A stretch of 48,373 nucleotides of DNA from assembly GCF_003611635.1 (NCBI RefSeq), contig NZ_RAVZ01000024.1, positions 1 to 48,373 of the forward strand, written 5' to 3'. Below are positions 7,664 through 31,014 of this stretch, piece after piece. The notes beneath the pieces were generated by a model, which had not been told where the DNA came from, did no database searches, and saw only the letters and a program-made list of their open reading frames with translations. Positions within the stretch are counted from its first letter, which is position 1, and the number at the start of each line of letters is the position of its first letter. The position numbers and the translations under genes are program-made. The DNA comes from Corallococcus terminator. Lineage in GTDB: Bacteria; Myxococcota; Myxococcia; Myxococcales; Myxococcaceae.

Positions 7664-8533
7664 CTACTCCTGGCCCGTCAGCCGGTAGTAGGCGTGGGGG
7701 CGGCGCCAGCGGATGAAGGCCTGGGCCAGCGGGTTCATCCCCCACTGGATGGGGATGTTGTCCACGATGAAGCCCAGGTCGTCCTTGAACTGTCCCAGTT
7801 GGGAGACCTCGCGGGCGTGCAGGCCGCCCACCAGCGTGTGGACGGACTTGAGCCTCCGGCAGACCTGCGCGAATTCGTAGCTCAGGCCGGTGGAGATGTT
7901 CGTCGGCAGCGCCCACGTGGCGTAGTAGGCGCTGAAGCCATACGCGACGCCGTCCACCACGTAGCCATCCAGGTAGCCGCCCAGCTTGCCGTCAATCAAT
8001 CCGGCCAGCACGCACCAGTGGTCGGAGATGAAGTACTTCCTCACGTCCTTGAGGTAGGCCTCCGGCGTGGGGATCTTCTTGTGCTGGGTCCGGCTCAGCG
8101 CATCCCGGACGACCCCATAGCCCTGCTCCAGCAGGACCGAAGGCCCGGTGAGCTGGACGATGCGGACCGTCTTCTGACACTTGCGCAGCTTGTTGCGCCG
8201 GTTCGAGGACAGGTGGCTGGCGTCGTAGGTGTTCAGGTCCTTGATGCGCACCACGGGCACCGTGCCGGTGGCGGACTTCGCCGTCTCTGGCGTCAGCGCC
8301 GCCCGGAAGCCCCAGGAGAGCGGCGTGGGAGAGGTGGCCTCCGCGGGCGTCAGCCGGGCCAACAGGTGCACCGGTTGGAAGAAGCCGGGCGCGCCCGACT
8401 GCTCCCAGTAGTGGCCCCGATGAGAGATGACGCGAACACCTTCCTCGCGCCGACGTTCAGCCAGCTCCCGCTCCGTGAGACACGCGAAGTGGGCGTTCTC
8501 GGCGTCGCGAAGCTGGGGAAGCGAGAGCACCAT
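7664..8533 (-). CDS. GNAT/FemAB-like acyltransferase
   Basis: 289 residues with AAAGGA 6 bases before the ATG. The sequence has the look of a single GNAT-type domain preceded by a beta-rich half: RRNKLRKCQKTVRIV (basic, near 110-125), then VLAGLIDGKLGGYLDGYVVDGVAYGF, the paired strands that form the acyl-CoA cleft, and later a helix with LSYEFAQVCRR. It lies 33 bp downstream of another acyltransferase gene on the same strand (8567-9520), so they are probably co-transcribed. They are divergent from the Wza gene. N- or O-acylation of a sugar in the polysaccharide made next door is the likely job, by context only. Confidence 0.7.
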   Translation of the reverse strand: MVLSLPQLRDAENAHFACLTERELAERRREEGVRVISHRGHYWEQSGAPGFFQPVHLLARLTPAEATSPTPLSWGFRAALTPETAKSATGTVPVVRIKDLNTYDASHLSSNRRNKLRKCQKTVRIVQLTGPSVLLEQGYGVVRDALSRTQHKKIPTPEAYLKDVRKYFISDHWCVLAGLIDGKLGGYLDGYVVDGVAYGFSAYYATWALPTNISTGLSYEFAQVCRRLKSVHTLVGGLHAREVSQLGQFKDDLGFIVDNIPIQWGMNPLAQAFIRWRRPHAYYRLTGQE

Positions 8534-8566: not shown

Positions 8567-9520
8567 TCAGGACCGCGGCGCGCGATAGGCGGGGAAGTAA
8601 TCCGTGGCCTCGTGGCCCCGGGACAGTTCGGCGTACACGTCGGGGTCGCAGATGAGGTCGTGCGTGTAGAAGCTGGACATCCTGTTGGCGAAGCCCCGCT
8701 TGAACTGCTCGAGGCGGTCACCCGGGCGGAGGCCGCCGCCCAGGTGCATGGGGGCCTCCAGCTTCGCGGAGAGCTCCACCAGCACCGGGTACTCGTTCTT
8801 CTCCGGCGAGTGCTTCAGGTAGGCGTCCGCCGTGCCCCCGATGAAGTGGTGCAGGAGCCCGTCGCTGAGGACCGCGAGCGCGGAGGACGCGATGGCCCCA
8901 TCCGGGGCGCGCGTGGTCACCAGCCAGGCGAAGCCGCAGGTGAACACCTCCTCGAACCACGCATCCGTGAAGTCATACCGGGCATCCGCCCTGTCGCGGG
9001 CCAGCGTCCGCCGGTAGAGCGCCTTGAGCGCCTCGCGCTGCTCCTCGGTGGACTCCTTCACCGGCACATAGGTGCTGACATAACCCAGCCGGGTGTTGCG
9101 GCGGATGTCCGCTGCGTGGTCGTCGCGGAAGCGCACCGGCTGGGTGCTGTCGATGAGGCACACGTCGGTGCGCAGCCTCCCGCCCGAAAAGCAGCACGGG
9201 CCGCCAATCCGGTCGCGCACGAAGATGCTGACCAGCTCCATGCCCCGCCAATCGATGGCGTCCGGGGGCACCTCGCTCATCCCGTTCAGCTCCGCGCCGG
9301 GAAACCCATACGGCGACACCGCGTCCCGGTAGGGCGTGCCTTCAATGGGCCGCACGATGAGCGGCACCCGCAGCGCCCGGCCCTCCCCGTCCTCCACGAT
9401 GAGGCTGTGGGTGACGCCTTCGGCTTTCAGGTACGGCTCCGACCGGAAGTAGTCCGCGCAGCAAGCCCGCTGCCCCCCATCCGGAACGAGGATGGCCCTC
9501 CACTGGGTCATGGATTGCAT
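8567..9520 (-). CDS. FemAB/GNAT-like acyltransferase, paralogue A
   Basis: 317 residues from the ATG at 9520, chosen because GGAGG lies 7 bases upstream; an ATG 45 bases further upstream lacks this. It aligns end to end with the protein at 20558-21508, sharing blocks such as RVPLIVRPIEGTPYRD versus HLPLIVRPIEGTPYRD, SPYGFPG, ELVSIFVRDR, TTRAPDG, GGTADA, HLGGGL and FKRGFAN. The C-terminal half resembles the GNAT-like domain of FemAB-related enzymes (Acetyltransf_6 type), which attach acyl or aminoacyl groups to amines on cell-envelope glycans. It is the first gene of a probable two-gene minus-strand operon. There is no signal peptide, so it acts in the cytoplasm on nucleotide- or lipid-linked sugars (inference). 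Confidence 0.75.
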   Translation of the reverse strand: MQSMTQWRAILVPDGGQRACCADYFRSEPYLKAEGVTHSLIVEDGEGRALRVPLIVRPIEGTPYRDAVSPYGFPGAELNGMSEVPPDAIDWRGMELVSIFVRDRIGGPCCFSGGRLRTDVCLIDSTQPVRFRDDHAADIRRNTRLGYVSTYVPVKESTEEQREALKALYRRTLARDRADARYDFTDAWFEEVFTCGFAWLVTTRAPDGAIASSALAVLSDGLLHHFIGGTADAYLKHSPEKNEYPVLVELSAKLEAPMHLGGGLRPGDRLEQFKRGFANRMSSFYTHDLICDPDVYAELSRGHEATDYFPAYRAPRS

Positions 9521-9785
9521 GTCGGTTCCTCCCATGGTCGCGAGGAGCGCGACTCGGGCAGCCACATCAAGCCCTCAAGACAGCGCAAGGGTATGGGCTT
9601 ACGCCCCCTCGGCGTCACGCCCCCCGGGGGTGGCGCTGATGTCGTGATTCCAGCGGTTCACCCCACCACGGAGCACTCCAGGGCAGGGCATGTGTCGACT
9701 CGGCTCGGGGCCTTAACGGCTTCCGGACACCTCGGTGCGTGCATGGGTTTACGCGCGCGGTGACAGACACGAACAATTCCGGCCA

Positions 9786-10904
9786 ATGAAGCAAATCCCT
9801 CTTATCGTCCTGTCACTGTGGGCAAGCGCATGCGCGTGGGGCCCAGGTATGCACATGGACGAAGATTCCTTCCGGGAGCGGTACGCCGGAAAGGCAGACG
9901 CGGGAGACGACGCCTTTGAAATCGTCCCCATCGACGCGTCCCTCTTGGGCCGACAGCAGGAGTCGCGCCGACAGGCCCGGACCGCCCCCTTGAAGGATCC
10001 GCTGGCGCAGGTGGCCGTGGACTACGATTACAAGGTCAGCTCCCATGACGTGCTGAGCGTCATCGTCTGGGACCACCCGGAGCTCACCATCCCCGCGGGC
10101 GAGTTCCGCTCCGCGGAGGCCACGGGCCATCCGGTGGCGGCGGACGGGACGATGTTCTACCCCCACGTGGGCGTCCTCCCGGTCGCGGGCAAGACGCTGC
10201 GGGAGATCCGCGAGCTGCTCACGCGGAAGCTGGCCGGCGTCATCGAACGGCCCCAGTTGGATGTGCGCGTGGTGGGCTTCCGGGGCCAGAAGATCCAGGT
10301 GACGGGGGAGGTGGTGGCTCCGGGAAGCCTGCCCATCACCGACGTGCCCCTGCGCGTGCAGGACGCCATCAGCCAGGCGCGGGGCTTCGGACCGGAAGCG
10401 GACCTGCGCACCGTCACGCTCAGCCGGGCGGGCACCACCTTCAACCTGGACCTGCAGGCCCTCTACGAACAGGGGGACGTCAGCCAGAACTGGCTGCTCA
10501 CGGACGGCGACATCATCAACGTCGCGGACCGCAACCGGAACAAGGTCTTCGTGATGGGCGAGGTGCGCAAACCCTCCTCCCGCCTGATGGTGAAGGGGCG
10601 GATGACGCTGGCGGAAGCGATTGGCGACAGCGAGGGCTTTGATCCGCTGACCTCCAACCCGGGGCGCGTCTACGTCATCCGGGGCAACTTCAACCGGCCC
10701 TCCATCTACAAACTCGACGCGAGTTCCCCGGACGCGCTGCTGCTCGCGGCGCAATTCCAATTACAACCACACGACGTCATCTTCGTCTCCGCGCACGACT
10801 TGACGCGCTGGAACCGCATCATCCAGCAGATCCAGCCGACAGTGCAGCTGCTCTGGCAGGCAGTGGATATCGGAGACAGAACCATCATCATCGACAACCC
10901 ATGA
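9786..10904 (+). CDS. wza: Wza, outer-membrane polysaccharide exporter
   Basis: 372 residues. The ATG at 9786 gives a lipoprotein leader ending ASAC (Cys16). The mature protein follows the Wza plan: a polysaccharide-export domain (YKVSSHDVLSVIVWDHPEL), two SLBB-type domains (VTGEVVAPGSLPI and FVMGEVRKPSS), and a C-terminal segment with LTRWNRIIQQIQPTV. That last segment matches the amphipathic helix by which enterobacterial Wza octamers pierce the outer membrane. From memory the match to E. coli Wza runs the full length, including MTLAEAIGDSEG and FQLQPHDVIFV. The product should form the outer-membrane channel for the polymer. Its stop overlaps the wzc start (ATGA). The Shine-Dalgarno is weak. 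Confidence 0.93.
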   Translation: MKQIPLIVLSLWASACAWGPGMHMDEDSFRERYAGKADAGDDAFEIVPIDASLLGRQQESRRQARTAPLKDPLAQVAVDYDYKVSSHDVLSVIVWDHPELTIPAGEFRSAEATGHPVAADGTMFYPHVGVLPVAGKTLREIRELLTRKLAGVIERPQLDVRVVGFRGQKIQVTGEVVAPGSLPITDVPLRVQDAISQARGFGPEADLRTVTLSRAGTTFNLDLQALYEQGDVSQNWLLTDGDIINVADRNRNKVFVMGEVRKPSSRLMVKGRMTLAEAIGDSEGFDPLTSNPGRVYVIRGNFNRPSIYKLDASSPDALLLAAQFQLQPHDVIFVSAHDLTRWNRIIQQIQPTVQLLWQAVDIGDRTIIIDNP

Positions 10905-13072
10905 TGCCCCCTCCTGAAAACGAAGATGAGCTGGGATTGGGTGGCTATCTGGCCATCCTCTTCGAGCGTCGTCAGGCCATCGCCACCACCCTCGCCCTGG
11001 CCCTGGTGGTGGGCGGCCTGTATCTGCTCACGGCGACGCCCATCTACCGCGCGAACGCCGTGCTGCGAATCGAGCAGAAGGCCAGCGGCCTGGGCCAGTT
11101 GGATGAGCTGCTCTCGGATGCGCCCAGCGTGGCCGCCACGGAGATGGAGGTCCTCAACTCGAGGGCCCTGCTGGGCCGGGTGGCGGACTCCCTGCGGCTG
11201 GGCGTGTCCGCGGACCCCCGCTACTTCCCCGTGCTGGGCGCGGCGCTCGCCCGCGCCCATGAGGGGCCGGACCTGGCGCCCGTCCCCTGGTGGGGCCGGG
11301 AGTCCTATGCGTGGGGCGGCGAGCGGCTCCAGGTGGAGCGGCTGAACGTGCCCGAGGCGCTGGAGGACCTCCCGCTCACCCTGGTGGTGGAAGCCTCCGG
11401 CGCGTACACCCTCCTGGACCCCGACGCCGTCGAACTGCTCCACGGGAAGGCCGGCACCGTCGCCACGACCCCTCCGGGCGCGGCGCACGAGGTGGAGCTG
11501 AACGTCACCGAACTGCACGCCCGGCCGGGGACCCGCTTCCGGGTGATCCGCCACTCGCGGGCCGCGGTGGTGGAAATGCTCCAGCGCACGCTGCGCCTGA
11601 GCGAGAAGGGCGTTGGCACCGGCGTGCTCAACCTCACCCTGGAGGGGCCGGATCCCCGGGTGGCCACCGAGACGCTCAAGGCCATCGCGGAGGCCTATGT
11701 CCTCTCCAACGTGGAGCGCCGCAGCGAGGAGGCCGGCCGGACGCTGACGTTCCTCGACAGCCAGTTGCCCGGCCTGCGCCAGGGCCTGGACCAGGCGGAG
11801 GTGGCCCTGCGCGACTACCGCATGGGCAAGGGCAGCGTGGACCTGGGGATGGAGGTCCAGGCCATCCTCAACCGGAGCGTGGAGCTGGAGAAGTCCATCT
11901 CCGAACTCTCCCTGGAGCGCTCGGAGCTGCGGCAGCGCTTCACCCGGCACCATCCGCTGCTCGTCGCCACCGGGAGCAAGCTGGCCCGCCTGCGGGCGGA
12001 GCGCAACGAGCTCACCACCCAGCTCAAGGGCATGCCGAGCGCGGAGCTGGTGTCCGCGCAGCTCACGCGCGACGTGAAGGTCGCCAACGAGCTGTACCTC
12101 CAGCTCAACAACAAGGCGCAGGAGTACCGGGTGCTCAAGTCGAGCACCATCACCAACGCGCGCATCATCGACGCGCCCGTGGCGAAGCGCCTCCCGGTGC
12201 GGCCCACGAAGCCGGACGTGCTCGCGGTCAGCCTGGTGCTGGGGCTGGCGCTCGGCGTCGCGTTCGCCTTCACGCAGCAGGCGCTCCAGGCGGGTGTGAC
12301 CAGCCCCGCCGCGCTGGAGAAGGCGCTCGCGAAGCCCGTGTTCGCAAGCCTTCCCCTGGGCCCGGACCGCTCGCCACGCGGCGGCGCAAGGCCCTCCATC
12401 CTCGCGCGGATCCGCCCCCGCGACCGCACCACGGAGAGCGTGCGCGGCCTGAGGACCCGGTTGCAGTTGGCGCTGAAGGACGCGCCCTCCCCTGTCGTCG
12501 CCCTCACGGGGACGAGCCCCGGCGCGGGGACGTCCTTCGTCGCGCTCAACCTCGCGTGGGCGCTGGCGGAGTCCGGCAGGCGCGTGCTGCTGGTGGACGC
12601 GAACCTGCGCGAAGGCTGGCTCCACCGCTGCTTCCGGGACACGCGCGCGCCGGGACTTTCGGAGGTGCTGAGCGGCACCCTTCCGCTGGAGCAGGCGGTG
12701 GTGGAGGAAGCCGGTCCCCGCCTGGCGTTCCTCGGTTCGGGCGAACTGCCGCCGGACCCCGCGGAGCTGCTGTCCAGCGACCGGTTCACCGCGCTCGTGG
12801 CGCACCTGGCCGGCCGCTACGACGTCGTCGTCTTCGACACGCCCTCCATCCTCGCGGTGACGGACGCGGCGCTCGTGAGCCGGCACGCGGGCGTGAGCCT
12901 CGCGGTGGTGCGCTCGGGCGTGCACCCACTGCGGGAGGTCGCGGCGGCGCTGCACCAGTTGGAACAGAACGGCGTGCCGGTGCAGGGCGTCGTCCTCAAC
13001 GGCGTGCCGCGCTCCCGCTCCGGGCGCGCGGTGAGCGGCATCTACCAGTACGACTACCCGTCCGAAGACTGA
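10901..13072 (+). CDS. wzc: Wzc-type polysaccharide co-polymerase with degenerate tyrosine-kinase domain
   Basis: 723 residues. A Wzz domain lies between a first membrane helix (about residues 27-46) and a second (about 437-457, after the proline-rich RLPVRPTKPDVLAV). A long periplasmic coiled-coil region lies between them. The cytoplasmic C-terminal domain has the bacterial tyrosine kinase fold, but Walker A reads GTSPGAGTS, with Thr544 (codon 12530-12532) replacing the essential lysine. Walker A' reads LLVDANLRE, with Asn568 for the second aspartate. Walker B (VVVFDTPSILAVTDAA) remains. The C-terminus keeps a short tyrosine cluster, YQYDYPSED. Wzc normally controls polymer length and gates export by ATP-dependent autophosphorylation; here ATP use is doubtful. 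It overlaps wza by 4 bp and lies 7 bp before the polymerase gene. No Wzb-type phosphatase is seen in the window. Confidence 0.9.
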   Translation: MMPPPENEDELGLGGYLAILFERRQAIATTLALALVVGGLYLLTATPIYRANAVLRIEQKASGLGQLDELLSDAPSVAATEMEVLNSRALLGRVADSLRLGVSADPRYFPVLGAALARAHEGPDLAPVPWWGRESYAWGGERLQVERLNVPEALEDLPLTLVVEASGAYTLLDPDAVELLHGKAGTVATTPPGAAHEVELNVTELHARPGTRFRVIRHSRAAVVEMLQRTLRLSEKGVGTGVLNLTLEGPDPRVATETLKAIAEAYVLSNVERRSEEAGRTLTFLDSQLPGLRQGLDQAEVALRDYRMGKGSVDLGMEVQAILNRSVELEKSISELSLERSELRQRFTRHHPLLVATGSKLARLRAERNELTTQLKGMPSAELVSAQLTRDVKVANELYLQLNNKAQEYRVLKSSTITNARIIDAPVAKRLPVRPTKPDVLAVSLVLGLALGVAFAFTQQALQAGVTSPAALEKALAKPVFASLPLGPDRSPRGGARPSILARIRPRDRTTESVRGLRTRLQLALKDAPSPVVALTGTSPGAGTSFVALNLAWALAESGRRVLLVDANLREGWLHRCFRDTRAPGLSEVLSGTLPLEQAVVEEAGPRLAFLGSGELPPDPAELLSSDRFTALVAHLAGRYDVVVFDTPSILAVTDAALVSRHAGVSLAVVRSGVHPLREVAAALHQLEQNGVPVQGVVLNGVPRSRSGRAVSGIYQYDYPSED

Positions 13073-13079
13073 GCCGCCC

Positions 13080-14360
13080 GTGAGCTTCGTCCGACGCACA
13101 GGCCTGGGCTTCATCGCGGCCATCTACGTGCTCGCGGGTCGCTGGGGCTTCCACCGGCTGGCCGAGGCGGTGCCGGAGGTCAACCCGTTCCTGGAGCTGC
13201 GGCTGTGGATCGTCACGGGCGGGCTGGTGCTCGCGTCCGTGGGGCTCCTGCTGCGCGCCACGCGCGAGGCGAGGCCCGGCGAGACGCGCTTCGACCCGCC
13301 GCTCGTCGCGGCGATGATGGGGTTCTTCGGCTACCTGGCCGCCAGCGCCGTGTGGGCCCCCAACACGACCTTCGCCCTCCTGAAGGTCTATGACCTGGGC
13401 CTGCTGCTGGTGATGAGCGTGGGCTTCGGGCTCGCCGCGCTCCGGCAGCCCGCCCCCCGGGTGCTGGATGCGTTCTGGGGCATCATCGTGCTCGCCACGG
13501 GGGTGCTCGCGCTCACCGGCGTGCGGCAGCTCCTGGGCGGCGGCGGCGGCGCGCGGCTGGCCGTGATGGGCGGCGGCCCCAACATCTTCGCGCGGCTCAT
13601 GGGGCTGCTCGCGCTGGGCGCGCTGTACTTCTGGTACTGGCGGGGACAGGCGTGGCTGTGGATTCCGCTGGCGGCCACCGGCGTCATCCTGGCGCTGCTC
13701 ACCGGCTCACGCGGCGGCACCGTCGCCATCCTCGCGGGCGTCATCACCTGCCTCGTGGTGGGGCGCGTGCCCATGCGACGGCTGCTGCTGCTGACGCTGC
13801 TGGCCACGGTGGCTGTCACGGCCGTGACGCTGTTCTCCCCCCTGGGCGAAGCGCTGACCCGCTCCGTGGAGGAGCGCTTCCTGCGCCTCACCCTGAACTA
13901 CGAGACGGGCGCGGGCGGCGCGCCTGGCAGCGGCGGCCAGGTGTACCTGTCCGGACGGGAGATCCTCTACGCGTCCGCCATCCAGTTGGGGCGCGACCAC
14001 CCGGTGACCGGGGCGGGACTGGCCGCGTTCCCCGGGCTGGGCCTGGGGGTGTACCCGCACAACCTCTTCCTGGAGGTGTTCTGCGAGGGCGGCACCGTGG
14101 GGCTGCTTTTCTTCGCGAGCGTCGTGGTCACCTTCCTGCGCTCGGCATTCCTGCGACGCCACGGCCTGGACGGCGCCACCGTGGGCGCGGCGGTGCTGGT
14201 GCTGCTGGGCAGTCAGTCCAGCGGAGACCTCTATGACAGCCGCGCCCTCTTCCTCTTGATGGTGATGGCCTCCTGCACCGCGGTCGCGGGACGCAGGACC
14301 CCCAGCGCCGCCCCGCAGCACGCCCCACTCCTTCCCGCGATGCCAGGAACCAACCCATGA
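13080..14360 (+). CDS. Wzy/O-antigen-ligase-type membrane protein (polysaccharide polymerase)
   Basis: 426 residues from a GTG codon at 13080. It is highly hydrophobic with roughly ten predicted membrane helices. A large periplasmic loop around residues 265-320 ends in GVYPHNLFLEVFCEGG, which matches the H-N-x-(F/Y)-L-E signature of the Wzy_C/O-antigen ligase family. A conserved arginine precedes it in GSRGG (near 210). In a Wzx/Wzy locus this protein joins lipid-linked repeat units at the periplasmic face of the inner membrane. Ligase and polymerase members cannot be told apart by sequence alone; context with Wza, Wzc and a flippase favours polymerase. It overlaps the glycosyltransferase start by 4 bp. 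Confidence 0.85.
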   Translation: MSFVRRTGLGFIAAIYVLAGRWGFHRLAEAVPEVNPFLELRLWIVTGGLVLASVGLLLRATREARPGETRFDPPLVAAMMGFFGYLAASAVWAPNTTFALLKVYDLGLLLVMSVGFGLAALRQPAPRVLDAFWGIIVLATGVLALTGVRQLLGGGGGARLAVMGGGPNIFARLMGLLALGALYFWYWRGQAWLWIPLAATGVILALLTGSRGGTVAILAGVITCLVVGRVPMRRLLLLTLLATVAVTAVTLFSPLGEALTRSVEERFLRLTLNYETGAGGAPGSGGQVYLSGREILYASAIQLGRDHPVTGAGLAAFPGLGLGVYPHNLFLEVFCEGGTVGLLFFASVVVTFLRSAFLRRHGLDGATVGAAVLVLLGSQSSGDLYDSRALFLLMVMASCTAVAGRRTPSAAPQHAPLLPAMPGTNP

Positions 14361-15580
14361 AGATCGTCTACCTGCACCAGTACTTCAATACGCCCACCAT
14401 GCACGGGGGCACGCGCTCCTATGAGCTCGCGCGCCGGCTGGTGGGCATGGGCCACGAGGTCCACATGGTGACCTCCGACACCCGGCCCCAGGCGCCCACG
14501 CGCGGCTGGCGCGAGACGAACGAGAGCGGCATCCACGTGCACTGGCTGCCGGTGCCCTACAGCAACTCCATGAAGAACTCGGACCGCATCCGCGCCTTCA
14601 GCAACTTCGCCGTCAACTCCACGCGCCGCGCGGCGCAGTTGTCCGGCGACGTCTTCTTCGCCACCAGCACGCCCCTGACCATCGCGGTGCCGGGCATCTT
14701 CGCCTCGCGCTGGAACAGCCGGCCCATGGTGTTCGAGGTGCGCGACCTCTGGCCCGCCATCCCCATCGCGGTGGGCGCGCTCAAGAGCCGCTCCGCCATC
14801 CTGGCCGCGCAGATGCTGGAGAAGGCCGCGTACGCGGGCGCGGCGCACATCGTCGCGCTGTCGCCGGGCATGAAGGCCGGCGTGGAGGCGGCGGGCGTGT
14901 CGTCGGAGAAGATCACCATCATCCCCAACCTCTGCGACCCGGAGCGCTTCCAGGTGCCAGCCTCCGCCGGCAAGGAGTTCCGCGCGAAGTACCCGTGGCT
15001 CCAGGACCGGCCCATGGTGCTGTACGCGGGCACGCTGGGGCTGGTGAACGGCGTGGGCTACCTGGTGCGGCTGGCGAAGGAGATGCTGACGCGCGACCCG
15101 GAGGTGCGCTTCGTCATCATGGGCCAGGGCCGCGAAGAGGCGGACCTGCACGCGCTGGCGGAGAAGCTGGGCGTGAAGGACCACAACCTCTTCTTCCTGC
15201 CCAGCGTGACCAAGGCGCAGGTGCCCGCGGTGCTCAGCGCGGCCACCATCGCCACGTCCCTCTTCACCGACGTGGACGGCATGCAGGACAACTCCGCCAA
15301 CAAGTTCTTCGACGCGCTCGCCGCGGGCCGGCCGCTGGCGCTCAACTACGGCGGCTGGCAGGCGGAGCTGCTCGACCAGGAGCACTTCGGCCTGCGCCTG
15401 CCGCCCCGGGACCTCCCCGCCGCGGCGGACATGCTGGCGAAGAAGCTGCGCGACCCGAAGTGGCTGGCGGAGGCCGGCGCGCTCGCGGGACGCCTGGGCA
15501 AGGAGCGCTACTCCGCGGACACCGCGGCCGTACGGCTTTCGGAAGTGTTGCAGCGAGCGGCAGCGGCGGCGCGTTCGTGA
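14357..15580 (+). CDS. Family 4 glycosyltransferase, WbuB-like
   Basis: 407 residues, GT-B fold. The N-terminus YLHQYFNTPTMHGGTRSYE is the hallmark of WbuB-type transferases (HQYF...GGTR). The acceptor-side domain includes MVFEVRDLWPAIPIAVG. The C-terminal domain carries the donor-binding stretch NSANKFFDALAAGRPLALN, in the position of the E-x7-E motif, though the first glutamate is replaced by Asn/Ser-type residues as in WbuB relatives. WbuB of E. coli is an N-acetyl-L-fucosaminyltransferase; the sugar here is not known. It acts at the cytoplasmic membrane face on the lipid-linked repeat unit. It overlaps both neighbours by ATGA/GTGA junctions, so it is translationally coupled. Confidence 0.9.
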   Translation: MKIVYLHQYFNTPTMHGGTRSYELARRLVGMGHEVHMVTSDTRPQAPTRGWRETNESGIHVHWLPVPYSNSMKNSDRIRAFSNFAVNSTRRAAQLSGDVFFATSTPLTIAVPGIFASRWNSRPMVFEVRDLWPAIPIAVGALKSRSAILAAQMLEKAAYAGAAHIVALSPGMKAGVEAAGVSSEKITIIPNLCDPERFQVPASAGKEFRAKYPWLQDRPMVLYAGTLGLVNGVGYLVRLAKEMLTRDPEVRFVIMGQGREEADLHALAEKLGVKDHNLFFLPSVTKAQVPAVLSAATIATSLFTDVDGMQDNSANKFFDALAAGRPLALNYGGWQAELLDQEHFGLRLPPRDLPAAADMLAKKLRDPKWLAEAGALAGRLGKERYSADTAAVRLSEVLQRAAAAARS

Positions 15581-16902
15581 AACAGCGCTCGGTGGGGGGC
15601 AACTTCGCCTGGTCGCTCTCCGCCGGGCTCATCTACGCGTTCGCCCAATGGGGCGTGCTGGTGGCCTTCGCCCGGCTGGGCACGATGGAGGAGTTGGGCG
15701 ACTTCGCGCTCGCCCTCGCCATCACCGCGCCCGTGCTGCTGATGGCCCGCATGCAGATGCGCACGCTCCAGTCCACCGACGCCCGGGGCGCCTTCGGCTT
15801 CGAGCATTACCTGGGCCTCATGGTGCTCAACGTGCTCGCGGGCGTGGCGGTGTGCTGCGCCATCGCGTGGGTGGTGGCGCCCTCGCCCCGCGCGATGGCT
15901 GTCACCGCGATGGTGGCGCTGGCCAAGGGCTTCGAGGCCTTGAGCGAGGTGTTCTACGGCGCGCTCCAGAAGCGCGAGCGGCTGGCGCTCATCGCCCGCT
16001 CCACCATCGCCAAGAGCGCGCTGTCGGTGGTGGGGGTGGCGCTGACGCTCTGGCTCACGCGCAGCCCCGTCGCCGCGGCGGCCGCGCTGGGGCTCTCCTG
16101 GGCCATCGTGCTCTTCTGCTTCGACGCGCAGGCCTTCCGGCGCGAATTCCCCGACGCGCACCCCTGGCGCCCGCTGTGGCGCACGCCGTGGCGCGAGCAG
16201 GGCGGCAAGGTGAAGGCGCTCTTCCTGCTGTGCTACGTGCTGGGCATCACCTCGCTGTTGGGGGCGCTGCGGCCCAACATCCCCCGCTACCTGCTGGAGG
16301 CGCACTCCGGCCAGGCGGAGCTGGGCATGTACGCGGCGCTCGCGTACTTCACCGCGCTGGGGGGCCGCGTGGTGCACTCGCTGGGGCAGGCCGTGAGTCC
16401 CCGGCTGGGCCGCTACCACGCGGCGGGGGAGCAGCGCCGCTACGGCAGGATGCTCGCGGGCTTCGCGGGCATCGCCGCGCTGATAGGCCTGTGCGCCATC
16501 GCCGGTTCGGCGCTGTTCGGACGCTGGGCGCTGACGCTCTTCTACGGGGCCGCCTACGCGCAGAACCTGGAATTGTTCGTCTGGCTGATGGGGGCCGCGG
16601 CGTTGGAGTACGTCTGCGTGAGCCTCCAGATTGGCCTCACCGCGGCGCGGGAGCTGAGGGCCCAGGTGGTGCTGCTCGTCGCGTCCGTCTGCGTGGTGGC
16701 GCTGGGCAGCGCGTACTGGGTTCCCCTGGTGGGGCCGGTGGGGGCCGCATGGGCGCTGGGGCTCGGGTGGATCACCGAACTGTCAGGCAGCGTCTGGCTG
16801 GCGGTGCGGGCCTGGCGGCGGCTGGGGCGCGAAGAGGTCTCCCTGGGGGCGTCCGTCCCCGCGCGGGCCGCCGTGGATGCTCGGGAGCGGACAGCGGGCT
16901 GA
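15577..16902 (+). CDS. Wzx-type polysaccharide flippase
   Basis: 441 residues from a GTG start that overlaps the previous stop (GTGA, 15577-15580). About 12 hydrophobic helices are spread evenly along the protein, with charged cytoplasmic loops such as DAQAFRREFPDAHPW. The N-terminus GGNFAWSLSAGLIYAFAQWGVLVAFARLG resembles the first two helices of Wzx/MATE-like flippases. It would translocate the undecaprenyl-linked repeat unit to the periplasmic face. The C-terminal 35 residues are polar. The first gene boundary is certain from the overlap; sequence divergence is high, as usual for this family, so assignment rests on topology plus context. Confidence 0.85.
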   Translation: MKQRSVGGNFAWSLSAGLIYAFAQWGVLVAFARLGTMEELGDFALALAITAPVLLMARMQMRTLQSTDARGAFGFEHYLGLMVLNVLAGVAVCCAIAWVVAPSPRAMAVTAMVALAKGFEALSEVFYGALQKRERLALIARSTIAKSALSVVGVALTLWLTRSPVAAAAALGLSWAIVLFCFDAQAFRREFPDAHPWRPLWRTPWREQGGKVKALFLLCYVLGITSLLGALRPNIPRYLLEAHSGQAELGMYAALAYFTALGGRVVHSLGQAVSPRLGRYHAAGEQRRYGRMLAGFAGIAALIGLCAIAGSALFGRWALTLFYGAAYAQNLELFVWLMGAAALEYVCVSLQIGLTAARELRAQVVLLVASVCVVALGSAYWVPLVGPVGAAWALGLGWITELSGSVWLAVRAWRRLGREEVSLGASVPARAAVDARERTAG

Positions 16903-17688
16903 GTCCCGGGGGTCGTGGTGGCCTTGCGGGCGGCTGCCTACGCTCCCAGCCTCCGAGCGCACGGCGTCCTCGGAAAAAGCGGGAGCACCTGCCCGGACAC
17001 CCACGCCTGGGAGCACGACACATGCAAAGACAGACAGGAACCGGAAGGTTCCTCAAGCGGTGCATCGACGTGGCAGCCGCGGGACTGGGCCTCGTGTGCC
17101 TGTCCCCGGTGATGGCCGCCACCGCGCTGTTCGTCCGCATGACGATGGGCCGCCCCGTCCTCTTCCGCCAGCAGCGGCCGGGGCTGGGGGGCCGGCTGTT
17201 CACCGTGCTCAAGTTCCGCTCGATGCTGGACGCGACGGACGCGCACGGCAACGTGCTGCCGGACGAGCAGCGCCTCACGTGGGCCGGGCGGCTCCTGCGC
17301 TCCACCAGCCTGGATGAGCTGCCGCAGTTGTGGAACGTGCTCCGGGGCGACATGAGCCTCGTCGGGCCCCGGCCGCTGCTCGTGGAGTACCTGCCGCGCT
17401 ACTCCGCCGAACAGGCGCGGCGCCACGACGTGCTCCCGGGCGTCACCGGCTGGGCGCAGATCAACGGCCGCAACGCCATCAGTTGGGACCAGCGCTTCCG
17501 GCTGGACGTCTGGTACGTGGACCACTGGAGCCTGGCGCTGGACGCGAAGGTGCTCGCGCTGACGCTGCTGCGCGTCGTGCAGCGCCAGGGCATCTCCTTC
17601 GTGAGCGACGCGACGATGCACAAGTTCGCCGGCAACGCCCCGCCCGAGTCCAACGTCGTGGCGCTCCGGCAGGGCGGCGACGAACCCT

Positions 17689-18840
<1,152 letters not shown>

Positions 18841-18904
18841 GCGATGAGGCTCCGGGGCTCGGACCGGGGCCCGTCCCCGGCGTTTCCCGAAGCGTTCGCA
18901 CACT

Positions 18905-18937
18905 CCCCTCCCCCACGCGCTCGGGCGGGGGGAGGGG
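18905..18937. terminator. GC hairpin between two minus-strand genes
   Basis: CCCCTCCCCC at 18905-18914 pairs perfectly with 18928-18937 around a 13-base loop. It lies 21 bases past the stop of the alpha/alpha-barrel lipoprotein gene and before the aminotransferase start, so it may end the lipoprotein transcript or reduce read-through. Confidence 0.5.
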
Positions 18938-18958
18938 GTGTTTGTTCGCATTGCGGAA

Positions 18959-20335
18959 CTACTGGCCGGACAGCACCTTCGCGTTGAGGGCACCGTTGCC
19001 GTAGAACTGCGTGTTGTTGCCCACCTTGTGCGTCTCCAGACGGCGCTGGAGGTTGGCATCATAGCGGCCCAGCTTCATCAGACCGTCGTTGAACCAGCCC
19101 GTTCCACTGCCCGTCCCGTCCACGTAGTTGGCGTAGCGGGTGGCCGAGGGCCAGATGACGTTGTTGAGCGTCACGACGAACTTCTGCATGTCCGCGGCCG
19201 TCCACTCCATGCCCGCGTCGCGCGCTTCCACGAGGTAGGCCATCACGCCATTGCCGTGGGCCACATCCTGGCCGGGGCGAGCGCTGGAGCCCCAGTTGGC
19301 GGCCCAGAAGTACGCAGCGGGGTTGACCATGCTTGTCTTCAACTGTCCGCGCAGCGAGGAGGTGTTGTTCGGCATGTCACGGTTGATGTTGTTGAAGACC
19401 GTCATGTACGTCGCCTTCTTCGTGGCGTCCGTGGTCATGCGCGACAGGTCCATCGCCATGTACGCCCAGTGCGACGCCATGTGCGTATTGACGCGATAGA
19501 TGTAGCTGTTGGCGCCGCGCTTGAGCCACTTCTCGAACATGTTCCGTTCGGTGAAGGCCAGCAGCTTGTCGTACTGCGCGCGGTAGTTGCTGTTGTTGTA
19601 CAGCGCCGGCGTCTCCTTGATGACGCGCAGCATGCGCGTCACGTACCGCCAGCAATAGCTTTCGAACAGGGGCACTTCCTGGCCCACGGTGTCCGAACGG
19701 GCGGAGGCCCAGCCCATGTAGCTGTCCTTGAACTGGCTGCGGGGCAGCGACGAGGAGACCCGAGCGTTGTTGACCACGTTGTTGGCGTAGAGCAGGGCCC
19801 GGTCCAGGTACTGCGTCTTGCCCGTGGCCCGGTACATCGCGGTGTTGCCGTCGACACCGTAGCCCAGGTTGTAGAACTGCCAGCTATCGAGCGACTTGCT
19901 CATGGGCAGGAAGCTGGAGGTGTGCTCGGAGTTCCAGCGACCGAGGAACAGCGTCTCCCAGGCCGCCACGGTCCGAAGACCCACGGCTGCCTGAGCGGTG
20001 GTGCCCAGCTCCTCCTGGGACGGAGCGGCCGGGTCCGCGGCAGGAGCCGACGGGACCTGGGCGACGGCTTCCGAGTCCGAGGGTGCGAGTGCGTCCGCCT
20101 CCTGGTCCGAGGGAGCAAGCGCGTCCTCGTCCTGGAAAGAGGGAGCGGGCGTCTGTGTTTCAGGGTTGACGGCTTCAGGGGTGCCTTGCGCGTTTTCTCC
20201 GCTGGTGTCGACCGAGGCCGTCTCGCCGGGGGTGGCTTCCGGGTTGGGGCCACAGGCACCCCCGACCAGAAGGGCGAGCGACAGCAGGGACGACAGGGCA
20301 AGACCAGACGTGTTGCTACGACGAGATTCCGACAT
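18959..20335 (-). CDS. Putative polysaccharide-active alpha/alpha-barrel lipoprotein
   Basis: 458 residues. The leader LALSSLLSLALLVGGAC suggests a lipoprotein, although glycine at -3 is atypical. Residues about 30-105 are a disordered linker rich in P, A, E, D and S, with near-repeats of DALAPSD. The remaining 350 residues are helical, with aromatic-rich pairs such as SLDSWQFYNLGYGVDGN, TGKTQYLDRALLYANNVV, RVNTHMASHWAYMAMDLS and QDVAHGNGVMAYLVEARDAG. This periodicity is typical of (alpha/alpha) toroids found in polysaccharide lyases, glycoside hydrolases and epimerases. His and Asp in DVAHGNG and Tyr/His in the earlier helices are plausible catalytic residues. I do not recognise a named family. 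Its place in the locus suggests trimming or editing of the exported polymer, as AlgL or BcsZ do elsewhere (inference). Confidence 0.65.
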   Translation of the reverse strand: MSESRRSNTSGLALSSLLSLALLVGGACGPNPEATPGETASVDTSGENAQGTPEAVNPETQTPAPSFQDEDALAPSDQEADALAPSDSEAVAQVPSAPAADPAAPSQEELGTTAQAAVGLRTVAAWETLFLGRWNSEHTSSFLPMSKSLDSWQFYNLGYGVDGNTAMYRATGKTQYLDRALLYANNVVNNARVSSSLPRSQFKDSYMGWASARSDTVGQEVPLFESYCWRYVTRMLRVIKETPALYNNSNYRAQYDKLLAFTERNMFEKWLKRGANSYIYRVNTHMASHWAYMAMDLSRMTTDATKKATYMTVFNNINRDMPNNTSSLRGQLKTSMVNPAAYFWAANWGSSARPGQDVAHGNGVMAYLVEARDAGMEWTAADMQKFVVTLNNVIWPSATRYANYVDGTGSGTGWFNDGLMKLGRYDANLQRRLETHKVGNNTQFYGNGALNAKVLSGQ

Positions 20336-20454
20336 CAGTGGGTCCCGTGGGGTAGGTCCGGTGTACTGCCCGGTGCGCTACCCTGTTGTGAGAACGCCGG
20401 AGTGCGTTCGCGGCCTTCAAAGAGTTGAGTGCCCCACAGAATTCCTTTGTGTTT

Positions 20455-20487
20455 AGACAAACAAAGGGAATGTCTGGCCGTTTGTCT
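20455..20487. promoter_or_regulatory. Inverted repeat upstream of acyltransferase gene
   Basis: AGACAAAC (20455-20462) and its perfect complement GTTTGTCT (20480-20487) flank 17 bases in an AT-richer patch. It ends 11 bases before the sigma-54-like promoter. It could be a protein-binding site or an mRNA-independent hairpin; no regulator is known. Confidence 0.35.
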
Positions 20488-20498
20488 TTGGTACCAGG

Positions 20499-20514
20499 TG
20501 GCATGGGCCTGGCT
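20499..20514 (+). promoter_or_regulatory. Sigma-54 (-24/-12) promoter candidate
   Basis: TGGCATGGGCCTGGCT matches the consensus TGGCAYRNNNNTTGCW at all but one fixed position and keeps the invariant GG and GC with exactly ten bases between. Transcription would begin near 20525, 33 bases before the start codon at 20558. It is the best such match I found in the non-coding stretches of this window. Confidence 0.45.
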
Positions 20515-20557
20515 GCCTGAGCCGGTGAAGCACGCACGCGGAGCGGGGGAGACACAC

Positions 20558-21508
20558 ATGAGAAGGGTGCAAGCGAGCGCCATGCTGGTTCCCGACGCGG
20601 GAGCCTCGGCGCTATCGGAGGAGTACTTCCGCTCCGCGCACCACCTGCGGGCCGAACGGGTGACCCACACCCTGGTCCTCCGCGGACACGCGGGGGGAGT
20701 GCTGCACCTGCCACTCATCGTGCGCCCCATTGAAGGGACGCCCTACCGCGACGGAATCTCCCCCTACGGGTTTCCCGGAGGGAGCCTGGACGGGCTGTGC
20801 GAGGTGCCGAAGCTGGACGTGGACTGGAGGAGCACGGAGCTGGTCAGCATCTTCGTGAGGGACCGGGTCCAGGGGCCGCCCTGCTTCGCGGAGCCGACCG
20901 CGCGCAACGAGGTCTTCTTCGTGGACCCGAAGCTGCCGCTCGACATCAAGGAGATGCACCGCCGGCACCAGCGGCGCAATGACCGGCTGGGCTTCGTGAG
21001 CACCGTCCGTCCCGCACGCGAGGTCTCCTGGGAGGAGCGGCAGGGCTTCCTGGAGGTGTACCGGCAGACGATGGTCCGCGACCGGGCCTGCGTCAGGTAC
21101 TTCTTCTCCAACGAATACTTCGAGGAGGTGTTCGCCTCGCCCGTTGTCTGGCTCGCGACGACGCGCGCGCCGGACGGACAGGTCGCCTCCAGCGCGCTCG
21201 TCGTGCGCAGTGATGGCCTGCTGCACTACTACCTGGGCGGAACGGCGGATGCGCACCTGGCGCGCTCGCCGGCGAAGAACGTCTTCGGCGCGATGATCGA
21301 CCTGAGCCGGGACCTGGGGCTCCCCCTGCACCTGGGCGGTGGGCTCCAGCACGGGGACGGTCTGGCGGACTTCAAGCGGGGCTTCGCGAACGCGAGCGCC
21401 CGCGTCCACACGCATGAGATTGTCTGCGAGCCGGGGGTGTACGCGCGGCTGACCGAGGGGCAGCCCTCCGGGAGCTTCTTTCCGGCCTACCGGGCGTCGC
21501 GGCACTGA
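20558..21508 (+). CDS. FemAB/GNAT-like acyltransferase, paralogue B
   Basis: 316 residues from the ATG at 20558, which has GGGGGAG 7 bases upstream; the open frame extends further upstream but through the promoter patch. It is a full-length paralogue of the protein at 8567-9520, with shared blocks LIVRPIEGTPYRD, SPYGFPGG, ELVSIFVRDR, TTRAPDG, HLGGGL, FKRGFAN and a common FPAYRA ending. The C-terminal half fits a GNAT-like acyl-CoA (or aminoacyl-tRNA) binding domain. No signal peptide. It is divergent from the barrel lipoprotein and convergent with the dehydratase. It probably acylates an amino sugar made by the dehydratase/aminotransferase pair (inference). A sigma-54-like promoter precedes it. 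Confidence 0.77.
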   Translation: MRRVQASAMLVPDAGASALSEEYFRSAHHLRAERVTHTLVLRGHAGGVLHLPLIVRPIEGTPYRDGISPYGFPGGSLDGLCEVPKLDVDWRSTELVSIFVRDRVQGPPCFAEPTARNEVFFVDPKLPLDIKEMHRRHQRRNDRLGFVSTVRPAREVSWEERQGFLEVYRQTMVRDRACVRYFFSNEYFEEVFASPVVWLATTRAPDGQVASSALVVRSDGLLHYYLGGTADAHLARSPAKNVFGAMIDLSRDLGLPLHLGGGLQHGDGLADFKRGFANASARVHTHEIVCEPGVYARLTEGQPSGSFFPAYRASRH

Positions 21509-21605: not shown

Positions 21606-23618
21606 TCAGGCGCTCACGGTCTGTTCGGCGCCCAGGGAAAGCGGGGGGATCCGGGGACCGCCCGACCCCTGCGGGTTGACGCCATCCATCAGGAGGGCGC
21701 TGCCCGGCGCGAGGACGTTGCGCGGCTTCGACGGGGTGTACGAGGGGATGAGGTCCTTGAGCGCGAGCTTCACGGCCAGGACGTCACCGGCCCGGGCCGC
21801 CCGGTCCAACCGGAGCAGTTGGAGGTCGAAGTCACGGGGAGGCGCGGGGCTGCGCGCCACCTTGATGCGGTTGCGGACCTGCTGCGTGAGTTCCTCTTCG
21901 TCGCTCATCAGCGTCTCCTCCAGCTTCTCGCCCGGGCGCAGCCCCGTGTAGACGATGGAGATGTCCTTGTCCGGCACCAGGCCCGTCATGGTGATCATGT
22001 TCGCGGCCAGTTCGGCGATCCGCACGGGCGCGCCCATGTCCAGGATGCACAGCTCGCCGTAGCCCCCCAGGCCCGCCATCACCACCAGCCCCACGGCCTC
22101 CGGGATGATCATGAAGTAGCGGGTGCAATCCGGGTGCGTCACGGTGACGGGGCCGCCCGCCTGGATCTGCTGCTTGAACAGGGGCACCACGCTGCCCGCG
22201 GACCCCAGCACGTTGCCAAAACGGACGGCGCAGAACGTGGTGCGTGAGTTCGCCGCGATGTTCCGGATGACCATCTCCGCGAGCCGCTTGGACGCGCCCA
22301 TCACCGACGAGGGCATGACGGCCTTGTCGGTGGAGATGAGGACGAAGCGCTCCGCGCCGCAGGCGTCCGCCATGCGCGCGACGTTCTGCGTGCCGAAGAC
22401 GTTGTTCTTGATGGCCTCCTCGGGCGAGTCCTCCATCAGCGGCACGTGCTTGTGCGCGGCCGCGTGGAACACGTACTGCGGCCGGAACTCCTGGCCGATG
22501 CGCAGCATCCGGTCCAGGTCCCGGATGTCCGCCACGACGGAGCTCACCGGCAGCCCGGGGTAGCGCGCCTGGAGCTGGCGCACGAGCAGGTAGAGTTCGT
22601 TCTCGTTGATGTCCACCACCACCAGCGACGCAGGGGCATGTCCCGCCACCTGGCGCGTGATTTCACTGCCGATGGAGCCCGCGCCGCCGGTGACGAGGAT
22701 GCGGCGGCCGGACACCAGCCGGTGGACCTCCTGGTGGTCGAAGGCGATGGCGTCCCGGGGCAGCAGATGCTCCGGGCTGAGGTCGTGCAGCATCGCGGCG
22801 GAGATCTTCTCATCCAGGTAGGCGAACGAGGCCGGGATGATCTTGAAGCTGACGCTCTGGTGCCGGCACAGGCTCAGGATGTGCCGGGTGCGCTCCGGCG
22901 ACAGGCGCGGGATGGCGATGAGCACCTGCGTCACCCGGTGCTTCGTCATCAGCTCCGGCAGCGCGTCGATGACACCCAGCACCGGCTTCCCATTGAGGAA
23001 GGTGCCTTGCTTGCCGGGGTCGTCGTCCACCAGTCCAATGACATGCCAGGGGCTGCCCGAACCGCGCATCAGGTCGCGCAGGAGCAGGTCCCCGGCGCTG
23101 CCCGCCCCCACGATGAGGGTCCGCTGGGCGCCGTCGTCCCTCGAGCGGCGCTGCTCCAGGTACCACTGCCGCGCCATCCGCGGCGCGAAGCGGTGGATCC
23201 CCAACAGCGTGGTGGTGGCGAAGAACTCGAGCGCGACCACCTGGCCCGGCACAGCCCGGGCGAAGAACACCAGGCGCAGGAATTCGAACACGATGCTGGC
23301 CGCGACGTTGGCCATCACCAGCCGGACCGCTTCGTTGATGCCGGAGCGGCGGAACGACCAGCGGTGCAAACCCAGCCACACCAGGGCGACCAGGCGCACC
23401 GCCAGCAGCAGCCCCAGCGCACGCGGGAAGGAATCCCGGATCCCGGCTGGCAGCACGCCGTCAAAGCGCGTCAGCACCGCGAAGAAGAGCGCCCCCGTGA
23501 TGAGGGTCGCGTCCACCAGCAACATGCGCAGCGAGCAGAGCAGGGGCGACCTCCCTGGCGTGCCTTCCACGGATGCAGCCGTGGTGCTCAACCCTTCGAC
23601 CTTCGAGGAACTCATCAT
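21606..23618 (-). CDS. Membrane-bound nucleotide-sugar 4,6-dehydratase, CapD/PglF/WbpM type
   Basis: 670 residues from ATG 23618; the next codon is also ATG (23615) and sits better, 7 bases from GGAGG. Four N-terminal membrane helices (about residues 28-125) precede a first Rossmann-like domain (TLIVGAGSAGDLLLRDL) and the catalytic extended SDR domain (ILVTGGAGSIGSE). The catalytic site is the large-dehydratase form with T430-D431-K432 and Met440-Gly-Ala-Ser-Lys444, where Met replaces the usual tyrosine. Such enzymes convert UDP-GlcNAc to UDP-4-keto-6-deoxy-GlcNAc at the membrane. The product is the natural substrate of the aminotransferase at 17689-18840. The C-terminal 50 residues are family-variable. 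Confidence 0.93.
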   Translation of the reverse strand: MMSSSKVEGLSTTAASVEGTPGRSPLLCSLRMLLVDATLITGALFFAVLTRFDGVLPAGIRDSFPRALGLLLAVRLVALVWLGLHRWSFRRSGINEAVRLVMANVAASIVFEFLRLVFFARAVPGQVVALEFFATTTLLGIHRFAPRMARQWYLEQRRSRDDGAQRTLIVGAGSAGDLLLRDLMRGSGSPWHVIGLVDDDPGKQGTFLNGKPVLGVIDALPELMTKHRVTQVLIAIPRLSPERTRHILSLCRHQSVSFKIIPASFAYLDEKISAAMLHDLSPEHLLPRDAIAFDHQEVHRLVSGRRILVTGGAGSIGSEITRQVAGHAPASLVVVDINENELYLLVRQLQARYPGLPVSSVVADIRDLDRMLRIGQEFRPQYVFHAAAHKHVPLMEDSPEEAIKNNVFGTQNVARMADACGAERFVLISTDKAVMPSSVMGASKRLAEMVIRNIAANSRTTFCAVRFGNVLGSAGSVVPLFKQQIQAGGPVTVTHPDCTRYFMIIPEAVGLVVMAGLGGYGELCILDMGAPVRIAELAANMITMTGLVPDKDISIVYTGLRPGEKLEETLMSDEEELTQQVRNRIKVARSPAPPRDFDLQLLRLDRAARAGDVLAVKLALKDLIPSYTPSKPRNVLAPGSALLMDGVNPQGSGGPRIPPLSLGAEQTVSA

Positions 23619-23929
23619 GTGGCCTCCCGCCCTTTTGGCCTGGCGCGGCTTTGAATCCGCCTCCCCCGGATGTCCGTAAGGAAGCTCGCCCCAGTCTTTG
23701 AAACGCGAGGAAGGGTTGGATGCTCGGAGGGCAATCCCAAGCCGTCCCGCAGGGCATCCGACCCTCCGCACGAGGCCCGTGGGCGTCAGTGAGCACCCGC
23801 ACCGCACCCGGGGTCTGCTTACCGACGCCCAGATATTTCCTTGGAAATCCTGTTTCTTGGTTTTTTCTGAAACCTCATCGAACAGGTCGGGTTGAACCCC
23901 TCCAGTGTGTCTTGCTGGAAGGAAAACCC
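23619..23929. promoter_or_regulatory. Divergent control region, dehydratase versus esterase
   Basis: 311 bp without a gene. It must hold promoters for both flanking genes. The half next to the esterase (23831-23890) is markedly AT-richer than its surroundings, which fits a promoter. An 8-base inverted repeat, TGGGCGTC at 23780-23787 and GACGCCCA at 23824-23831, flanks 36 bases there. No confident sigma-70 or sigma-54 hexamers are assigned. Confidence 0.4.
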
Positions 23930-25384
23930 ATGCGGATGGATGTCTTCGTCGTCGCCTTCGGGCTGGTGGTGGGCTGTGGCAGGGATGTGTCGTGGGACAC
24001 AGAGCCACCGGAGGCGGTTGGCGTGGTGGCCTCCGCCGCCGTGGCCACCTGTGGCAACGGCATCGTGGAACAGGACGAGCTGTGTGACGGAGGCGGCGCG
24101 GTGGCGTGCACGGGCCTGTCCGCGCTGTACACCGGAGGGCAGACGGTCTGCGCCAGCACCTGCCGGGGTTACGAGGTGGCGCGGGACTGCCGCGTGAGGC
24201 CGGGTGTCCTGGTGGAGACGATCCGCCCAGCCCTCCGGGACGCTTCACGCTGGGCGGGGGCGAAGTGCAACGACGGGACGAGCTTCGCCTTCAACTTCAG
24301 CCCCTCGCCCACCGGCAGCAAGGTGTGGGTCATCAACCTGGGCGGCGGCGGCTACTGCGACGGCACCACCAGCGCGTGCGCGAACCGGGGCGTGCTGCTC
24401 ACCAGCAAGGGCGAGCCCGCGGACCGGGCGCTGGAGACCCGGGCGGGCTCCGGCATCCTGTCGCGCGACCCGGAGGAGAACCCCACCTTCGCGGACGCCA
24501 ACCAGGTGAGCGCCCACTACTGCTCAAGCGACCTGTGGACTGGCACGAATCCCACGCCGCAACCGGTGGATGGTGGGCTGCGCCTGCGCTTCAACGGCCG
24601 GCTCAACGTGCGCGCCCTGTTGGAGGTGCTGCGCCGCGACTACGGCCTGGATGACCGGAACAACGCCCTCAAGGTGGTGTGGACGGGCTCGTCCGCCGGC
24701 GGCAATGGCGCGCAGAACAACGCGGATCAGCTCGCCCGCGCCCTGCCCCGGGCCCAGGCGGCCCGCCGGCTGTGGGTCATCTCCAGCGCCGGCTGGATGC
24801 CCTTGAACTGGACGAACCCGGACTACACCCAGAGCGGCATGGGGATGCCCGACCCGGTCGTCTCCGCACAGCTCGCCACCCTCTACCAGGCGGAGTTCAG
24901 CCCCGAGTGCCGCGCGCTGGCGAGGGCCGCGGGGCGCCAGGAGTCCGACTGCTTCGCGGGCCTGCCCACGGTGGCGTCCCTCCACCTGCCCGTGGCCCGG
25001 GGCGGGCTGGGACTGCGGACGCTGGCGGCCACCAACCGCCGGGACCCCGTGTACACCACCCACCACGGGCTCACGGACCTGAGCGCGAAGACGAACGCCG
25101 CCCTGCAGGAGTGGGACGACCTGATGGCGCGCGAGATGCGCGACTCCGGCGTGCGCTGGCTCTTCGCGCCCTCGGATGATCCGCGCGTGGGTTCCCAACT
25201 GCACGGCGTCTATGGCTCGTGGCGCCTGCCCTTCAAGCCGTTCAACGCCGCCAACGACGTGTGCGACGACCTGCCCGCGTACACCGTGCCGGACTTCCGC
25301 GAGATGGTGACGCGCTTCTTCGAGGACCCCTCGCCGGACACATCCCGCCTCAAGGTGTGTTTCAACGGAGAGTGGTTGCCCTGA
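23930..25384 (+). CDS. Pectin acetylesterase/Notum-family lipoprotein
   Basis: 484 residues; ATG at 23930 with GGAAGGAAAA upstream. The leader MRMDVFVVAFGLVVGC gives a lipobox cysteine at 16. Residues about 40-85 hold a Myxococcus cysteine-rich repeat (CGNGIVEQDELCDGGG). The rest matches the pectin acetylesterase alpha/beta-hydrolase family: WVINLGGGGYCDGTT for the oxyanion region, and WTGSSAGGNGA with the nucleophilic serine. The Asp and His of the triad would lie in the C-terminal third (candidate FAPSDDPRVGSQLHGVYG). Family members remove acetyl groups from pectin or, in Notum, palmitoleate from a protein. Next to a polysaccharide locus, a carbohydrate acetyl ester is the likely substrate (inference). 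Predicted location is the cell envelope. Confidence 0.85.
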   Translation: MRMDVFVVAFGLVVGCGRDVSWDTEPPEAVGVVASAAVATCGNGIVEQDELCDGGGAVACTGLSALYTGGQTVCASTCRGYEVARDCRVRPGVLVETIRPALRDASRWAGAKCNDGTSFAFNFSPSPTGSKVWVINLGGGGYCDGTTSACANRGVLLTSKGEPADRALETRAGSGILSRDPEENPTFADANQVSAHYCSSDLWTGTNPTPQPVDGGLRLRFNGRLNVRALLEVLRRDYGLDDRNNALKVVWTGSSAGGNGAQNNADQLARALPRAQAARRLWVISSAGWMPLNWTNPDYTQSGMGMPDPVVSAQLATLYQAEFSPECRALARAAGRQESDCFAGLPTVASLHLPVARGGLGLRTLAATNRRDPVYTTHHGLTDLSAKTNAALQEWDDLMAREMRDSGVRWLFAPSDDPRVGSQLHGVYGSWRLPFKPFNAANDVCDDLPAYTVPDFREMVTRFFEDPSPDTSRLKVCFNGEWLP

Positions 25385-30988: not shown

Positions 30989-31014
30989 CGGCACCCGGGA
31001 CAAAAGGAATGCAC

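Follow-up and report, generated by a model that had tools for sequence, protein, structure and literature searches.

The question raised by this locus is how a Wzc-like co-polymerase can serve an export pathway when its kinase domain has lost catalytic residues and its C-terminal tyrosine tail has been kept. Capsule in E. coli falls drastically when either the kinase or the phosphatase activity is lost (PMC11986026, PMC8285477), so control of the pathway must be different here; without such different wiring, an inactive kinase would be expected to do harm. The gene lies in a window of 48,373 nucleotides (the whole stretch of DNA analysed). The window corresponds to contig C166 of a genome that is of near-full completeness and comprises 10.35 Mb in 863 contigs.

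The gene is a 723-residue open reading frame whose ATG overlaps the wza stop by 4 bases. Wzz, WZC_N and GNVR match above their Pfam cut-offs, and the NCBIfam model PRK11519 (Wzc) matches the protein with an E-value of 1.6e-153, which is nevertheless below the curated cut-off of that model. The Wzz/WZC_N/GNVR periplasmic part with two TM helices, the fused BY-kinase-fold domain (Pfam, AF2, PDB match) and the presence of wza and wzy in the operon identify a PCP-2a protein of the Wzc type. The AF2 model has a pLDDT of 83, with a confident kinase domain and a disordered tail; its best PDB match is 7nhr (Z 37.4, residues 11-722), the closest protein being Wzc K540M. Residues were assigned by alignment to E. 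coli Wzc (PDB 7nhr/9exq), with a constant offset of 4 across the kinase motifs: T544, D566, N568 and D646 correspond to K540, D562, D564 and D642. The gene and its motifs are as follows.

10901-13072, + strand: wzc-like PCP-2a gene, Wzz + WZC_N + GNVR periplasmic/TM part and BY-kinase-fold domain (Pfam/NCBIfam, AF2)
12434-12454, + strand: EX2RX2R oligomerisation motif (E512, R515, R518), invariant in 43/43 aligned sequences
12509-12538, + strand: Walker A, GTSPGAGTSF, Lys replaced by Thr544 (codon ACG, 12530-12532; alignment)
12584-12616, + strand: Walker A', VLLVDANLREG, D566 intact, second Asp replaced by Asn568 (codon AAC, 12602-12604; alignment)
12824-12847, + strand: Walker B, VVVFDTPS, D646 intact (codon GAC, 12836-12838; alignment)
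12935-12937, + strand: Glu679, equivalent to the tyrosine-pocket residue E675 of E. coli Wzc (pocket per PMC11986026), present in all clade members
13037-13060, + strand: C-terminal tail GIYQYDYP (Y715, Y717, Y719)

The codons and the alignment bear out an earlier note on this DNA, which had read Thr544 and Asn568 as replacements of the Walker A lysine and the second Walker A' aspartate and had described Walker B as persisting. The C-terminal YQYDY cluster that it also reported is present but short, with three tyrosines where the sampled relatives usually have 4-7. Among the features of a competent BY-kinase, the protein thus keeps the Walker B aspartate and a reduced tyrosine cluster, and lacks the Walker A lysine and the pair of Walker A' aspartates; a cognate tyrosine phosphatase gene of the Wzb or CpsB type is also missing (see below). 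A BY-kinase fold without the catalytic residues corresponds to a BY-pseudokinase.

The surrounding genes are as follows:

9786-10904, + strand: wza-like outer membrane export protein (profiles), overlapping the wzc start by 4 bases
13080-14360, + strand: Wzy_C/O-antigen-ligase-family polymerase (Pfam, synteny)
14357-15580, + strand: family 4 glycosyltransferase (Pfam, synteny)
15577-16902, + strand: putative Wzx-like flippase, start approximate (position and conservation alone)
17022-17768, + strand: phosphoglycosyltransferase, Bac_transf (Pfam/NCBIfam)
17689-19062, - strand: LegC-like sugar aminotransferase, conserved neighbour (synteny)

The order wza-wzc-wzy-GT4-wzx-PGT, with the aminotransferase on the opposite strand, is the same in related loci with the lysine (L081, L086, L087) and without it (L080, L082, L084, L085). 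No additional BY-kinase or phosphatase gene was seen in the operon in either set, nor, in the syntenic loci, any extra gene to which the kinase could have been relocated. Acyltransferase-like genes flank the operon on either side (7664-8533 and 8567-9565 on the - strand, 20429-21508 on the + strand). The second and the third, the latter a GNAT of the Acetyltransf_6 family, have matches at corresponding positions in related loci; 7664-8533, for which no NCBIfam match was found, is present again in several of these. Near the operon, 21606-24248 (-) encodes a PseB/FnlA-like nucleotide-sugar dehydratase whose N-terminal part matches WcaJ-type profiles, and further along 30382-33258 (+) encodes a protein with about 14 RCC1 repeats.

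Orthologues were collected at 47% identity or more over the full length, a sharp gap separating them from paralogues at about 30% (96 family genomes), and outgroup orthologues were added by a class-wide search. Clade counts refer to 27 members with a readable kinase domain, from Myxococcaceae genomes. Asn568 is found in all 27, and position 544 is Thr in 16, Ala in 3 and Lys in 8, so the description of a dead-looking kinase domain extends to the clade. The near outgroup orthologues have Lys and Asp at the two positions (30/30 each), and Lys is also present in 63/63 correctly framed Wzc proteins of other Proteobacteria among the matches listed. This background is mostly gamma- and betaproteobacterial, with two misread frames left out; one of the three peptide patterns used in the contig scan covers the Walker motif, and it permits K or T. 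A Myxococcaceae MAG sequence (L088), 87% identical, also belongs to the clade. Because the substitutions recur across many genomes, a sequencing error or a one-off mutation, which the earlier note would have suspected had all orthologues shown GKS or GKT, is ruled out. One sequence of another kind, L145 from a Vibrio hibernica contig, is Wzc-like with Gly in place of the first Walker A' aspartate (LLIGADMRKG), the lysine and a tyrosine-bearing tail being present.

Trees were computed without the motif columns. On the best tree, parsimony places Asn568 as a single change on one branch, and the sister of the N568 clade, L037, has Lys, Asp and the tail GVYQYAYP. The lysine pattern requires at least two changes on the same tree, although a single lysine-less clade is not rejected (p-AU 0.38), and Thr and Ala have been exchanged several times inside the lysine-less set. 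Asn568 thus arose once, and Lys544 was lost afterwards, once or twice; many independent losses of the lysine are unsupported, since only the Thr/Ala changes recur. Eight members of the clade keep the lysine and carry the D-to-N change alone; their kinases may still be active, a point against the pseudokinase reading set out below.

EX2RX2R, G543, S545, D566, R570, D646 and the pocket residue Glu679 are invariant in the clade. The clade tail reads G(I/V)YQY(E/D)YP, with Y715 and Y717 in 27/27 and Y719 in 25/27 (missing in L011 and L033), which is the pattern that a two-tyrosine clamp would need. Of the stretches measured in the clade, residues 713-720 are the most conserved, with an entropy of 0.27 bits, compared with 0.76 for the BY-kinase core and 1.50 for the outgroup tails. 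The basic residue at position 571 has been lost (Gly in 26/27 members, Glu in the window protein), and the second Pro of the Walker B DTPP is replaced by Ser or Cys throughout the window's genus, as far as kinase domains are readable (14 members). Arg520 (12458-12460), close to EX2RX2R, occurs in 19/19 lysine-less members and is mostly Ser elsewhere, with Arg also in the lysine-keeping L023 and L031; it is possibly a compensating charge.

Evolutionary rates were taken from domain branch lengths, in place of dN/dS by simple counting, which was set aside because dS is very low in such GC-rich coding sequence and absolute ratios are then unreliable. The kinase/periplasmic rate ratio is 0.74-1.37 in lysine-less groups and 0.27-1.01 in lysine-bearing groups, the highest value belonging to the three-member group that includes the window protein. 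As the lysine-less ratios overlap or exceed the others, the kinase domain appears constrained, perhaps mildly relaxed. There are no internal stops, and the lysine-less state is spread over four genus groups.

The lack of a Wzb-like phosphatase, previously noted for the window, holds well beyond it. Wzb-type LMW-PTPs with strong matches (E about 1e-31 or better) are encoded in 17/19 outgroup genomes, 12 of which have theirs no more than about 2 kb from a wzc of the same family, and in 0/27 clade genomes, where the LMW-PTP matches are weak (E 4e-19 or worse); these counts mirror few evolutionary events and are not independent, as the absence may be one family-wide event. The two matches in the window's genome were rejected as Wzb, being weak and ArsC-like (CVHNAGRSQ, CKQSAGSSQ), and no phosphatase of the CpsB/CapC type was found in that genome. 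Absence of Wzb does not by itself mean absence of phosphorylation, since the outgroup genomes G117 and G122 also lack a strong Wzb. PHP proteins are encoded in 7/7 genomes tested, which leaves room for a phosphatase like PhpA of Myxococcus xanthus, known to dephosphorylate the BY-kinases BtkA and BtkB (PMC12004946). Genome G001 carries both a canonical long-tail Wzc (L049, on G001:C4), with Wzb about 12 kb away on the same contig, and the short-tail sister protein L037 (on G001:C6), without Wzb nearby.

A second kinase gene, which the earlier note had proposed to look for, does exist. The window's genome has three BY-kinase genes including 10901-13072, and the other two keep the Walker lysine: C554 carries a Wzc whose motifs read GKS and DTD and whose tail is rich in Tyr, while the gene on C277 encodes a stand-alone BY-kinase adjoining a PCP. 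By architecture, they resemble BtkB/WzcB and ExoD/BtkA of M. xanthus.

The best reading of these sequences is a naturally occurring counterpart of K540M: a BY-pseudokinase in one chain with its co-polymerase. We give about 60% to the reading as a whole, in which the co-polymerase would be working, the YxY tail would act as an unphosphorylated clamp and export would be free of phosphorylation. The mechanism draws on E. coli Wzc, in which YxY clamps the octamer, one Tyr lying in the active site of the adjacent subunit and the Tyr at i-2 in the E675 pocket (PMC11986026), and in which the K540M mutant is stably octameric (PMC8285477) and binds both Wza and ADP-Mg (PMC12881504). Here, the octameric ring would likewise be built via EX2RX2R, and each unphosphorylated YxY tail would dock in the dead active site and tyrosine pocket of its neighbour. 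The ring would be held as in the engineered K540M octamer, possibly nucleotide-bound, and would support Wzy and engage Wza without a phosphorylation cycle. Clamping the octamer is the probable role for which the tail has been retained, and export probably proceeds independently of phosphorylation.

How this state was reached can be proposed more tentatively, at somewhat less than even odds: the lineage would have dismantled the cycle in order while the unphosphorylated YxY was selected as a permanent structural clamp, leaving a full Wza-Wzc-Wzy machine that polymerises and exports without tyrosine phosphorylation. In the order proposed as part of the best reading, the Wzb-type phosphatase and the upstream tail tyrosines would have gone first; the Walker A' D-to-N change would then have been fixed once, with loss of the basic residue 571; the Walker A lysine would have been lost last, in a nested subset. 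The earlier note had offered phosphorylation of the tail by another kinase, ATP binding in a new way, or export uncoupled from phosphorylation. The third fits best, given the phosphatase absence, the tail shortening, the D-to-N change followed by lysine loss, and the retained operon.

Phosphorylation of the tail in trans, by a BtkB/WzcB-like or ExoD/BtkA-like kinase and with a PHP-type phosphatase to reverse it, would explain why the tyrosines are conserved, and both the lysine-bearing kinases on C554 and C277 and the precedent of PhpA speak for it. In known Wzc, however, kinase and substrate belong to one ring, and another kinase would have to reach a tail that is docked on the neighbouring subunit. 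No extra kinase or phosphatase gene was seen in the operon, lysine-less genomes have three BY-kinase genes just as lysine-keeping ones do (G033 has two), and the tail is down to three tyrosines with the third gone in two members. We consider this explanation unlikely.

It is less probable still that the pocket binds or hydrolyses nucleotide without the lysine, nucleotide state rather than tyrosine phosphorylation driving assembly and disassembly of the ring. The invariant P-loop, Walker and arginine residues (G543, S545, D566, R570, D646) and the ADP-Mg bound in E. coli K540M are consistent with nucleotide in the pocket, and Arg520 might supply charge. But hydrolysis normally requires the Walker A lysine, residue 571 is no longer basic and the second Asp of Walker A' has gone too, and two lysine-keeping proteins share the arginine. 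A kinase half in simple decay, as a part for which the pathway has no further use, with a tail surviving by chance or for lack of time, could account for the ratio of 1.37 in the window protein's group and for the Walker B proline lost in its genus. Such a relic is hard to reconcile with the absence of stops, the spread over four genus groups, the exceptional conservation of the tail, the invariant EX2RX2R and pocket Glu and the retained operon, and it is a very improbable explanation.

The BY-pseudokinase reading has precedents. The protein shares with E. coli Wzc, a PCP-2a tyrosine autokinase, and especially with K540M, its full-length architecture, kinase fold, EX2RX2R, Walker B and YxY tail; it differs in the natural Thr/Ala for Lys, Asn for D564, the three-Tyr tail and the missing Wzb partner. 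EcpK, from the related myxobacterium M. xanthus (PMC12004946), and HfsB of Caulobacter likewise belong to Wzx/Wzy pathways and have a BY-kinase fold that lacks catalytic motifs, and a phosphorylation-independent function has been proposed for them (PMC12004946). They are, however, stand-alone partners of a separate PCP, whereas the domain here is fused, and EcpK lacks all Walker motifs and the tail tyrosines, whereas the present protein retains its YxY tail and the larger part of the P-loop. PssP2 and PssP of Rhizobium leguminosarum (PMC4182512) are PCPs with a fused kinase-like domain, thought not to autophosphorylate; PssP2 lacks all the motifs and the Y-cluster, and PssP, with Walker motifs and no Y-cluster, is the opposite of the protein described here. 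In Staphylococcus aureus, CapB1 (PMC3795738), a natural BY-kinase with a Y-cluster and no detectable activity, retains the Walker A lysine (K55) that is missing here and binds ADP-Mg in the crystal. BY-pseudokinases such as EcpK, HfsB and PssP2 are thus already known; PMC12004946 lists further PCP-2 proteins with a fused pseudokinase, and the comparison here covers the proteins described above. What appears to be new is the loss of the lysine alongside a retained tail: a search of the open-access literature turned up no published example of this combination.

The clade offers a natural series, K+D, K+N and T/A+N, in related loci, which allows the requirement for the kinase, and the question whether the tail is structural or a substrate, to be tested in intact soil bacteria. 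As a natural experiment, it bears on whether export machines of this kind require phosphorylation in the first place, and it would add integral, tail-keeping Wzc proteins to the phosphorylation-independent PCP-2 subfamily that was recently proposed.
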